Below are positions 54,526 to 59,657 of a stretch of DNA of 64,000 nucleotides, piece after piece. Numbering within the stretch: position 1 is the stretch's first letter; each line of letters opens with the position of its first letter. The stretch covers positions 62,001-126,000 of the forward strand of contig NZ_JACBFP010000004.1 of NCBI RefSeq assembly GCF_021401085.1, written 5' to 3'. A program made the position numbers and the translations under genes. The stretch is from Chryseobacterium sp. R2A-55 (GTDB lineage: Bacteria; Bacteroidota; Bacteroidia; Flavobacteriales; Weeksellaceae). The notes beneath the pieces were generated by a model, which saw nothing but the letters and a program-made list of their open reading frames with translations, ran no database searches and was not told the origin of the DNA.

Positions 54526-57500
54526 ATGTCTGAAAAAAGAATTTTCGTAGAAAAAAAAGGAATTTTCGATGTAGAAAGTCCAAAGGTTTATAATGAGCTA
54601 AAGGAGATCGTCCCCGAAATCCAAAATGTTAAAATCTATAATATTTACGATATTTTTGGGGTGGATGAACTTGATCTGAGCCGAATCATTTTCAACACTT
54701 TTGTAGATCGGGTGACAGATATCGTTCATTCCGAAAATCCCGCGAAAAAATTTTATTTCGCCACCGAATTTCTTCCAGGTCAATACGATCAAAGAGCAGA
54801 TTCCGCTGAACAGTGCATTGCATTGCTGACCGGAAATGAAAACTCAAAAGTGCGAAGTGGAAAACTGATCGAACTTTTTGGGATTACTGAAAATGATTTG
54901 GAAAAAATCAAAAACCACCTCATTAATAAAGTGGAATCCCAGGAAAAAGATCTGACGAAATTAGAGATTCCGGCGGAAGCAATTCCTGATAAAGTGATTG
55001 TTCATAAAGGTTTTAAAGATTTCGGAAAAACCGAATTGGAGGAATTTTATAAGAACAACGGTTTCGCTTTTGGATTGGATGATTTGGCATTTATCCAGAA
55101 TTACTTCAAATCTGAGGAAAGAGATCCCACCGAAACCGAACTCAAAGTTCTAGACACTTATTGGAGCGATCATTGCCGACATACCACTTTTGAAACAGAG
55201 TTAACCGATATTAAGTTTGAAGGTGATTTCAAACACACTTTGCATGCAATTTTCAACGATTATCTGGAGAAAAGAAAATTCCTCGGTCGCGAATCGAAAC
55301 CTATTTCTCTAATGGATTTGGCCACGGTTTGTTCCAGATATTTCCACAAAACCGGAAAACTGGAAAACCTGGTTGTTTCTGATGAGATCAATGCATGCAC
55401 GATAGAAATTGAAGCCGAATTTGACGGTAAAAAAGAACCTTGGTATTTGCTCTTTAAGAATGAAACCCACAATCACCCTACAGAAATCGAACCATTCGGT
55501 GGCGCTTCCACCTGTTTGGGAGGTGCGATTCGGGATCCCCTTTCGGGACGCGCTTTCGTTTATCAGGCAATGCGGCTTTCAGGAGCTGCGAACGTTTTGG
55601 AACCGATTTCTAAAACTTTTCCGGGAAAACTTCCACAAAGAACCATCACGAAACAGGCGGCAAACGGCTATTCCTCTTATGGAAACCAGATTGGTTTGGC
55701 GACGACTTTGGTCAATGAAATCTACCATGATGGTTATAAAGCCAAAAGAATGGAGGTTGGTTTCGTGGTGGGTGCCGTGAAAAAAGATTGGGTGCGAAGG
55801 GAAAAACCAGCAAATGGCGACCTTGTGATTTTACTCGGCGGTGCAACCGGAAGAGACGGTGTGGGAGGTGCGACAGGAAGCTCAAAAGAGCAGGACGAAA
55901 CCTCGATTCACACGCTCTCTACTGAAGTTCAGAAAGGAAATGCAGTGGAAGAAAGAAAAATCCAACGGTTGTTCAGAAATCCGGAAGTGACTACTTTAAT
56001 CAAGAAATCCAACGATTTCGGGGCGGGTGGAGTTTCCGTGGCAATCGGCGAAATCGCCGACTCATTAGAAATTAACCTTGATATACTTCCTTTAAAATAC
56101 GAAGGATTGAACGGAACGGAGCTTGCCATTTCAGAATCCCAGGAAAGAATGGCGGTGGTGATTGAGGCAAAAGACAAAGAAAAATTCATCAGCTTTTGTG
56201 AAAATGAAAATATCAAAGCGGTGGAAGTGGCTAAAGTAACCGATTCCGGAAGGATGCAGATGTTTTGGCAGGGAAACAAAATTGTGGATCTGAGTCGTGA
56301 ATTCCTTGATACAAATGGTTGCGCAAAAAAACAGGATGCAACCATCTCGCATTTGCAAACGATTGAAAATCAAGATATATGCTTTAATGAAGAACGTTTC
56401 TTAAAAGCACTTTCAGAAAAAAATGTGGCCTCGAAAAAAGGTCTGACCGAAATGTTTGACGCATCAGTTGGAGCCACCACCGTTGCAATGCCGTTTGGCG
56501 GAAAATACCAGTTGACCGAAATGGAGGGAAGCGCGCAGACTTTACCGGTTTTGAATGCTGAAAATATCGAAACGGTTTCACTTGCAAGTTGGGGTTTTGA
56601 TGCGGATCTTTCTTCACAAAACTCCATGATTGGAGCTGCAAATGCTGTGGTAGAAAGTGTTGCCAAGATTGTAGCGATGGGCGGGAACTATAAAAACATC
56701 CGCTTAAGTTTTCAGGAATATTTTGAAAAATTGGGCACTAATCCCGAAAAATGGGGGAAACCACTCGCATCGCTTTTGGGAGCGTATGATGCGCAGATGA
56801 ATTTCGAACTGGCCGCAATTGGTGGAAAAGATTCGATGAGCGGGACTTATCAGGACTTGAATGTTCCGCCTACTTTGATTTCTTTTGCCTGTGCAAACGG
56901 GGAAAAGAAGAATGTCGTTTCACCGGAATTCAAGAAAGCGGGAAACAGATTGTATTGGTACAAACATGTGCCTCAGAAAAACGGTTTGCCGAATTATGCA
57001 GAATTGAAATCGATTTTTGATTTTGTTCATGAAAATATCAAGTCTGGGAAAATTGTTTCCGTAAAAACGATTAAGGAAGGTGGAGCTGCGGTTGCTTTGG
57101 CGAAAATGAGTTTCGGCAATCATTTAGGGGCTGAAATTTCACTGGAGGAGAATCTGCTTTTAAATAAAGGTATTGGAAGTCTGATCGTGGAAACAGTGGA
57201 GAATTTAGATTTTGAACTTCTTCAACCAATTGGTGAAGTTAAAGGTAGTAAACAGCTTAAAATAAATAGTTTAGTATTTGATATTCAAAATTTACTTCAG
57301 GTATGGACGGGAACGTTTGAAGAACTTTTCCGTACGAAAGAAAGCGATAGAATTATTGTGGAAATCGATGAAGAATCCAATTCCATAACGCCTCGCAAGA
57401 TTGAAATCATAAAACACGGGATTGCAAAACCAAAAGTTTTTGCGCCGGTTTTTCCGGGTACCAATTGCGAGTACGAAACCCAGAACGCTTTCCGAAAAGA

Positions 57501-58265: not shown

Positions 58266-58289
58266 AAATATAAGCAAAATCGCTAATAA
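58266..58289 (+). repeat. 24-bp direct repeat, copy 1 (candidate operator)
   Basis: This stretch is identical to 58294-58317. It contains ATATAAGC-AAAATC-GCTAATA, an imperfect dyad related to the palindrome at 58325-58346. Confidence 0.75.
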
Positions 58290-58293
58290 ATTA

Positions 58294-58317
58294 AAATATA
58301 AGCAAAATCGCTAATAA
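58294..58317 (+). repeat. 24-bp direct repeat, copy 2 (candidate operator)
   Basis: This is an exact copy of 58266-58289 with a 28-bp period. It ends just before the -33 TTG of the satD promoter. Confidence 0.75.
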
Positions 58318-58349
58318 TTGATTGATATAAGTAAATTTGCTTATATTTG
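58318..58349 (+). promoter_or_regulatory. Promoter of the SatD-DUF3307 module
   Basis: TTG at 58318-58320 (or 58322-58324) and TATATTTG at 58342-58349 are 21 (or 17) nt apart, matching the Bacteroidetes -33/-7 promoter. The -7 box ends 4 nt before the ATG, so the transcript would be almost leaderless. Confidence 0.65.
58325..58346 (+). promoter_or_regulatory. 22-bp near-palindromic operator in the satD promoter
   Basis: ATATAAG and CTTATAT frame TAAATTTG; only one base pair breaks the dyad. The site fills the -33/-7 spacer and enters the -7 box, and its left half ATATAAG is shared with the two direct repeats. Autorepression by the HTH of the encoded SatD-like protein is inferred. Confidence 0.65.
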
Positions 58350-58353
58350 AAAA

Positions 58354-58959
58354 ATGAAATCGGTAATAACAGGTGACATCATCAATTCGCAAAGCATTCA
58401 ACCAGAAGTTTGGTTTAATGCATTGAAAGATGTTTTAGGAAAGAAGAACCCAAAAGTATGGGAAATTTATCGTGGTGATGAATTCCAAATCTTAGTTCCA
58501 AAAGCTGAAAACGCTTTATTAAAAGCGCTTCAGATCAAGGCAAAAATAAAAACCATTAAAGGTTTGGATGTGCGTTTGTCCATTGGTTTGGGAACACAGG
58601 AATTCAAAACTGATCAAATTTCGCAGTCAAGCGGAACTGCATTTGTCAATTCCGGTCGGAATTTGGAGCGGATTAAAGAAAGCAAAATAAACCTTGCTAT
58701 CCAATCACAATACGGTGATTTTGACCGTGGTTTTAATTTGATTCTCAAATGGTTGCTTTTGACTGCGGACAACTGGACAGTAGTTTCCGCAGAGATCGCA
58801 TTAATGATCCTGAAAAATCCAAAAATCAGTCAGGAAGAAATCGCGAAGATGTTTGGAATTACACAATCATCAGTTAGTCAAAGAATTAAGAGGGCGAATT
58901 TAGATTTGATTTTAGAAACCGATCAATATTTCAGAAAAAAAATAGCAGAACTGAAATGA
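58354..58959 (+). CDS. SatD family protein: cyclase/GGDEF-like palm plus helix-turn-helix
   Basis: This 201-residue cytoplasmic protein has two parts. Residues 1-115 read like a diverged nucleotide-cyclase palm: a first strand VITGDII with Asp8, the hairpin EIYRGDEFQILVPK (RGDEF at 40-44, compare GGDEF), the strand VRLSIGLG, then SGTAFVNSGRNLERIK. Residues 155-185 form a helix-turn-helix (ISQEEIAKMFGITQSSVSQR). The SatD family has no assigned reaction that I know of. The stop overlaps the DUF3307 start by 4 bp, and three related operator-like repeats lie in the promoter. DNA binding is likely; nucleotide binding or synthesis is a hypothesis. Confidence 0.82.
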   Translation: MKSVITGDIINSQSIQPEVWFNALKDVLGKKNPKVWEIYRGDEFQILVPKAENALLKALQIKAKIKTIKGLDVRLSIGLGTQEFKTDQISQSSGTAFVNSGRNLERIKESKINLAIQSQYGDFDRGFNLILKWLLLTADNWTVVSAEIALMILKNPKISQEEIAKMFGITQSSVSQRIKRANLDLILETDQYFRKKIAELK

Positions 58960-59657
58960 TTTTCATAGCACTCATATTGGCACATTTACTCGGGGATTTC
59001 ATTTTCCAGCCGAATTCTTGGGTCGCCAACAAAGAGCTGAAAAAAGGGAAAAGCAAATTTCTCTACTTTCATATTTTAATCCATATCGCACTGGTTTTGG
59101 TTGTTTTGTGGAATATCCAACTTTGGTGGATCGCTTTAATCATTGGGATCACCCATTATTTAATAGATATCGCCAAACTGCAGTATCAAACTCCAAAAAC
59201 CAAACGAACCTGGTTTTTTGTTGATCAACTGTTGCATATATTGGTCATCGTCATATTGTCAGTATTTTATTTTCCCTATTTCAAATGGGAAGATTTCTTC
59301 AACAATGAAAACCTGAAACTCATTACGGCGGTCATTTTTCTCACGATTCCAAGTTCAATTATCATCAAAACACTTATTTCAATTTGGACTCCAATAACTG
59401 TGGATCACAGCAAGATTCAGACAGAATCATTGGTTAATGCCGGAAAATATATTGGAATTTTAGAAAGGCTTCTTGTTTTCGTCTTCATCATCGTCAATCA
59501 TTGGGAAGGAGTAGGTTTCATGATCGCCGCGAAATCGGTTTTTAGGTTCAGCGATTTGGCCGAGGCGAAACAGAGAAAACTCACTGAATACGTTTTGATC
59601 GGGACATTGCTGAGCTTTGGAATCGCTGTTCTGGTGGGAATTTTGGTGCAAATTTAA
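58956..59657 (+). CDS. DUF3307 integral membrane protein
   Basis: This 233-residue protein has six or so membrane helices. Polar pairs sit inside predicted helices: His10 and Asp14 (AHLLGDF), His39 and His43 (HILIH), His67 and Asp71 (THYLIDIAK), Asp90 and His94 (VDQLLHIL). This pattern resembles intramembrane metal-dependent hydrolases of the YdjM/DUF457 type. The end carries the DUF3307 block KSVFRFSDL and EYVLIGTLLSF. It is translationally coupled to the SatD gene (ATGA). purC begins 27 bp later with no visible promoter. The function of the family is unknown. Confidence 0.85.
   Translation: MIFIALILAHLLGDFIFQPNSWVANKELKKGKSKFLYFHILIHIALVLVVLWNIQLWWIALIIGITHYLIDIAKLQYQTPKTKRTWFFVDQLLHILVIVILSVFYFPYFKWEDFFNNENLKLITAVIFLTIPSSIIIKTLISIWTPITVDHSKIQTESLVNAGKYIGILERLLVFVFIIVNHWEGVGFMIAAKSVFRFSDLAEAKQRKLTEYVLIGTLLSFGIAVLVGILVQI

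Follow-up and report, generated by a model that had tools for sequence, protein, structure and literature searches.

A probably autoregulated gene pair in Chryseobacterium: the predicted palm–HTH protein SatD and its membrane partner

The window is the whole 64,000-nucleotide stretch of the Chryseobacterium sp. R2A-55 contig that was analysed. It contains satD and, on the same strand, the gene for a membrane protein that is referred to here as the partner. The two window open reading frames encode 201 and 233 amino acids. They overlap by 4 bp, as an earlier reading made from the sequence alone (the sequence-only reading) had reported. At the left edge of the locus there are three tandem, dyad-symmetric repeats at 58268, 58296 and 58325, the third of which is a near-perfect palindrome. 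The features are:

58269..58288, forward strand: putative operator O1, TATAAGCAAAATCGCTAATA (repeat family; exact pattern match in the genome)
58297..58316, forward strand: putative operator O2, the same sequence as O1, 28 bp downstream (repeat and pattern match)
58326..58345, forward strand: putative operator O3, TATAAGTAAATTTGCTTATA, a near-perfect palindrome 29 bp downstream of O2
58342..58349, forward strand: candidate -7 box TATATTTG, overlapping O3 and 4 nt before the satD ATG
58354..58959, forward strand: satD, 201 aa, ATG start (PF16264 E = 4e-9, HTH models, AlphaFold2, Foldseek)
58375..58377, forward strand: codon of D8, the first-strand metal-type Asp (218/219 SatD proteins)
58474..58482, forward strand: codons of G41-D42-E43 at the β2-β3 turn (D42 in 219/219, E43 variable; turn placed from the model)
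58792..58911, forward strand: HTH region of SatD, residues 147–186, with the recognition helix at ~171–180
58956..59657, forward strand: membrane partner gene, 233 aa, overlapping satD by 4 bp
58959..59306, forward strand: DUF3307 (PF11750) half of the partner with His/Asp pairs, a variable module (E = 2.8e-30)
59418..59654, forward strand: conserved partner core, residues ~155–233 (no Pfam family)

SatD is divided into a predicted palm (residues ~1–117), a helical linker with a near-invariant W141 and the HTH (~147–186). Between positions 54526 and 61931 of the window the gene order is purL, satD and partner, then purC and purF, with the pair interrupting the purine operon. In this genus purL and purC flank the pair, and in a related genus it adjoins purC. 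In Flavobacterium-type genomes, Ignavibacteria and other groups it occupies different, group-specific sites. Such constancy of site within families speaks against the pair being part of a typical defence island. Because the pur-operon site is confined to this taxonomic family, a role specific to purines was rejected for SatD proteins as a whole.

The window SatD passes the curated cut-off of the SatD family PF16264 (36.9 bits against 29) and also matches several HTH models at its C-terminus. The sequence features first ascribed to it, namely EIYRGDEFQILVPK, Asp8, an LSIG strand and a C-terminal HTH, are all present. An AlphaFold2 model, based on an alignment with 77 relatives from named genomes, has a pLDDT of 92.5 and a pTM of 0.90. 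In this model, the N-terminal part forms a β-α-β-β-α-β palm made up of a strand (2–10), a helix (17–28), two strands (36–40 and 43–48) with G41-D42 at the turn, a helix (51–66), a strand (72–80), a helix (95–108) and a strand (114–117). The helical linker and the HTH follow. In a Foldseek search of the PDB, GGDEF diguanylate cyclases and class III adenylyl cyclases rank at the top (E ~1e-3, probability 1.00). The leading matches are the GGEEF diguanylate cyclase 6eib (E = 9.5e-4), OaPAC, PleD and Ma1120, and GTP cyclohydrolase III, cUMP synthase, Cas10/Cmr2 and Thg1 appear lower in the list. TM-scores are modest, mostly 0.3–0.45, as expected if the palm alone is common to SatD and its matches. 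A profile of the SatD family picks the class III cyclase Ma1120 weakly (E = 0.08), with HTH proteins ranked above it through the C-terminus. The GGDEF-like palm proposed in the sequence-only reading thus stands: at the level of the predicted fold, SatD is a palm-cyclase-like protein. Searches of the same genome return zero GGDEF matches and zero class III cyclases above the cut-off. This is congruent with the earlier remark that c-di-GMP is rarely used in Bacteroidetes, and SatD is the only palm-cyclase-like candidate found in this genome.

Residue conservation was counted in 219 SatD proteins drawn from the Bacteroidota, from named genomes of many phyla and from plasmids. D42 is present in all 219, and D8 and S12 are each present in 218. 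Strong conservation extends to F44, Q45, R74, G80, G94, K108 and W141. The expectation that the acids of the palm would be kept across the family is therefore borne out for D8 and D42 and fails for E43, which is replaced by Ser in 57 of the proteins. We equate position 101 with the Arg of class III cyclases. It is Gly in 80 of the 82 proteins of the DUF3307 type, including that of the window. Where the partner lacks DUF3307, it is mostly Arg, and F97 or L97 then occurs with R101. In divergent SatD proteins from a Chlorobium-like group (L206:1770-2465 and L213:1721-2428), the hairpin reads RHDSW and a His replaces the Gly before the invariant Asp.

Retention of the metal-type Asp pair argues for metal–nucleotide binding, and SatD, as modelled, likely binds a nucleotide. 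By analogy with known cyclase structures, S12 and K108 are likely phosphate contacts. The further suggestion that SatD makes a nucleotide fares less well. The Pfam models GGDEF (PF00990) and Guanylate_cyc (PF00211) do not match SatD, and the Asn/Arg transition-state pair of the class III VNxxxR motif is out of place in the window protein (F97/G101). With neither the GGDEF nor the class III signature present, catalysis by SatD is considered only possible.

SatD is similar to several known palm proteins and differs from each of them. It shares palm topology, the strand-1 Asp and the hairpin-turn acid with GGDEF cyclases such as PleD and the V. cholerae GGEEF protein. Unlike these, it has RGDEF, LGDEF or RGDSF in place of GG[DE]EF and carries a fused HTH. 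With the class III cyclases (Ma1120, OaPAC and the Pycsar cUMP synthase) it shares the palm and two Asp residues at metal positions, D8 and D42, in addition to the weak Ma1120 profile match; the lack of the VNxxxR motif at its expected place and the missing Guanylate_cyc match set it apart. A GGDEF-like domain joined to an HTH is also found in CdaR/PucR-type regulators, of which we take 3onq, a structure in the Foldseek list, to be one. SatD differs from them in keeping the Asp pair, in its class of HTH and in having a dedicated membrane partner. No PADLOC cyclase or Cas10 model matches SatD, which is a weak test for an mCpol-type enzyme since the PADLOC library dates from 2023.

The partner had been described as rich in His/Asp pairs. 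These pairs are present and lie in its N-terminal DUF3307 half (residues 2–117 match PF11750 with 105.4 bits against a cut-off of 23), whereas the part that is conserved across the family is the C-terminal half. The constant element is a C-terminal helical core of ~80 residues. It occurs behind DUF3307 in 82 partners, behind another membrane domain in 93 and alone (≤150 aa) in 33. Its conserved residues are G163, G167, E170, R171, K193, R197, Y212, G216 and S220, and the charged residues among them are predicted on the cytoplasmic side. The partner model is all helical, without a β-barrel. The fold of the core has zero PDB matches by structure or profile search. DUF3307 was rejected as the conserved partner, since it is absent from more than half of the pairs and the core is constant. 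The proposed SatD–DUF3307 pairing accordingly holds as a conserved pair of SatD and a membrane protein across phyla, and not as a pairing with DUF3307 itself.

The partner is present on the same strand at 208 of the 219 SatD loci. Of 212 spacings, 94 equal -4, the commonest value, and 175 fall between -20 and +30. Six of the 11 loci without a partner stop at a contig edge. Among 395 genomes of the phylum of the source organism, SatD is detected by its Pfam model in 79 and the partner core in 129; immediately upstream of nearly all the extra cores there is a SatD that is more divergent. The pair spans phyla of Bacteria and also occurs in haloarchaea. Plasmid-borne pairs are found in Segatella, Vibrio, Salinivibrio, Arthrobacter and the haloarchaeon Halorientalis. 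At three loci (L014, L122 and L164), SatD is intact and the partner gene is frameshifted or split. On an Agrobacterium pAt plasmid (L172:3971-8555), SatD and a shortened core partner lie near HipA, HEPN/nucleotidyltransferase and antitoxin genes.

An intact DUF3307/core partner occurs without satD in three genomes (L223:2469-3239, L225:1937-2623 and L226:441-1127), at sites that carry both genes in relatives. These are Chlorobium-like genomes, a group that we assigned from gene content. A further locus, L222, has one truncated partner copy without SatD. The partners without SatD in three genomes indicate that the coupling is not absolute.

Repeats like those of the window are common upstream of SatD genes. 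Direct repeats with at least 16/20 identity precede 51% of SatD genes; the figure is 1.3% for control ORFs and 2.7% for shuffled sequences. In 109 of the 112 cases the lag is 28 or 29. Exact 7-bp inverted repeats are found upstream of 48% of SatD genes, against 6% for shuffled sequences and 9% for other ORFs. Palindromic arrays are present at 137 SatD loci, mostly in 2–4 copies. The operator sequence varies by lineage along with the recognition helix of the HTH. For example, QSSVSQR occurs with TATAAGC, QAAVSRR with TATTAC and xAVYKNI with TTxAACC. In a partial Mantel test of operator against recognition helix that controls for the palm, r is 0.21 and the permutation maximum is 0.08 (0 of 1000 permutations reach the observed value); relatedness is strong, and other SatD segments correlate too. 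When the genome was scanned for the operator as a sign of a wider regulon, nothing above chance was found beyond the three copies at this locus.

The HTH and the operator array argue strongly for the self-regulation proposed in the sequence-only reading. As judged from these sequence patterns, autoregulation by SatD dedicated to its own operon is well supported. The box TATATTTG is presumably a -7 box of the Bacteroidota type. Because O3 overlaps it, SatD is likelier to act as a repressor than as an activator of the operon.

At two loci SatD adjoins PycTM, an effector of Pycsar. One is L132:266-1532, in a metagenome-assembled genome with a Chloroflexi label, where a canonical SatD is followed by PycTM, which replaces the usual partner. 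This PycTM exceeds the Pfam cut-off (E = 9.2e-8) and matches the PADLOC 2TM effector model (4.2e-31), operator-like repeats lie upstream of the SatD gene, and the genome has a single match each to SatD and PycTM. At the other locus, L235:951-2739, PycTM (PADLOC 3.6e-24) is separated by 19 bases from the SatD gene downstream of it, after which comes a DUF3307/core partner with a shortened N-terminus. PycTM is found in 4 of 150 other genomes with the Chloroflexi label. As it is this rare and occurs once in the L132 genome, its adjacency to SatD is unlikely to be due to chance. These two cases, among ~226 loci and in draft genomes, are a lead towards a nucleotide link to SatD. The pair otherwise differs from Pycsar (PycC and PycTM), as SatD has no PycC-type cyclase match and its usual partner is distinct from PycTM.

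Published work supplies further clues. Of the accessory genes of S. pyogenes, satD alone falls in the top quarter of essentiality (PMC11323703), as would fit a gene that restrains something harmful. In Panoptes, a palm enzyme restrains a membrane effector via a constitutive nucleotide (PMC12657218, PMC12657230). The SatD pair resembles Panoptes (mCpol/OptS and 2TMβ/OptE) as a two-gene operon of a palm protein and a membrane protein; it differs in the HTH and operators of SatD and in an all-helical partner without the 2TMβ β-barrel. On the features compared SatD falls outside Panoptes, although its mode of action may be similar. Taken together, the PycTM neighbours and the essentiality in S. 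pyogenes hint that a membrane effector is under nucleotide-linked control, perhaps of a Panoptes-like kind.

The window protein belongs to the same family as SatD of the Streptococcus mutans sat operon. In the literature searched, the sat genes are portrayed only as secretion and acid-tolerance genes (PMC12077213), and the palm fold, the operator array and the partner do not appear there. DUF3307 is named in one paper of that literature, on a jumbo phage. An origin from phages or viruses was rejected, because phage records gave no match to SatD or the partner and viral contigs gave one partial match. A known defence family was also rejected, as PADLOC matches to the SatD locus are at the HTH level only. 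A search of the literature yielded no account of a system composed in this way, and the pair appears to be undescribed.

As a description of anatomy, an autoregulated palm–HTH protein with a dedicated membrane partner is put forward with high confidence. With less assurance, though we favour it, we read the pair as a self-contained, autoregulated sensor–effector module. SatD, presumably as a dimer on palindromes, would occupy the three operators, 28–29 bp apart, over its own promoter and would control the satD–partner operon alone, most likely as a repressor. Its palm would bind a Mg-nucleotide via D8 and D42, as the predicted fold and the invariance of these residues suggest. The signal would be occupancy or turnover of this site, and it would alter DNA binding, be relayed to the partner, or both. 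More tentatively, the helical core of the partner would be the membrane effector that answers the same nucleotide state, its N-terminus receiving DUF3307, another membrane domain or nothing. SatD may signal enzymatically to the partner. That it is a nucleotide synthase and a transcription factor in one, whose (cyclic) nucleotide product would gate the partner and act back on operator binding, is a speculative proposal that we think rather unlikely to be right.

Other explanations are possible. A non-enzymatic metabolite or metal sensor, in which a degenerate palm like that of CdaR/PucR would bind a ligand and tune expression of a membrane transporter or channel, is conceivable if somewhat doubtful. 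It would suit the existence of palm–HTH regulators with GGDEF-like domains, such as 3onq among the Foldseek matches, the lack in SatD of the first Gly of GGDEF and of the class III Asn/Arg pair, and the stable site of the pair, which is flanked by purL and purC in this genus and lies beside purC in its relative. However, the catalytic-type Asp pair is kept almost without exception, unlike in a drifting sensor, and only in this family does the pair sit in the purine operon. The invariant Asp pair fits a Panoptes-like guard, in which the product of a SatD cyclase or synthase continuously restrains a harmful partner, loss of the product frees it and autorepression keeps the dose low. The two-gene layout of palm and membrane partner (PMC12657218, PMC12657230), the essential yet accessory satD of S. 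pyogenes (PMC11323703), the PycTM swap in L132, the PycTM neighbour in L235 and the broken partners at some SatD loci also fit such a guard.

The main evidence against obligate restraint is that three Chlorobium-like genomes keep the partner without SatD. The genomic site is, moreover, constant within families, no defence island was seen, PADLOC does no better than the HTH level and the partner lacks the 2TMβ β-barrel; we regard a guard as unlikely. The partners without an adjacent SatD (L223, L225 and L226) also weigh against a classical toxin–antitoxin system with cooperative autoregulation, in which the SatD protein would bind and neutralise a membrane-damaging partner. Tandem operators, overlapping genes, plasmid copies and the essentiality of satD in S. 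pyogenes (PMC11323703) are consistent with such a system. Most relatives, however, carry the pair at stable chromosomal sites and an antitoxin would not usually have a full palm domain, which leaves this explanation improbable.

If the sensor–effector reading is correct, SatD and DUF3307, both families of unknown function, and the unnamed membrane core become one system with testable chemistry. A single polypeptide in which a DNA-binding domain is fused to a palm that retains its pair of metal-type Asp residues would link transcription to nucleotide chemistry, and an explanation would be offered for an odd essential accessory gene in S. pyogenes. If SatD is a synthase and transcription factor in one, Bacteria and haloarchaea would share a new system for signalling or guarding, and the essentiality of an accessory gene in S. 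pyogenes would be accounted for. The SatD–partner module is widespread and may represent a new switch that senses nucleotides or signals through them.
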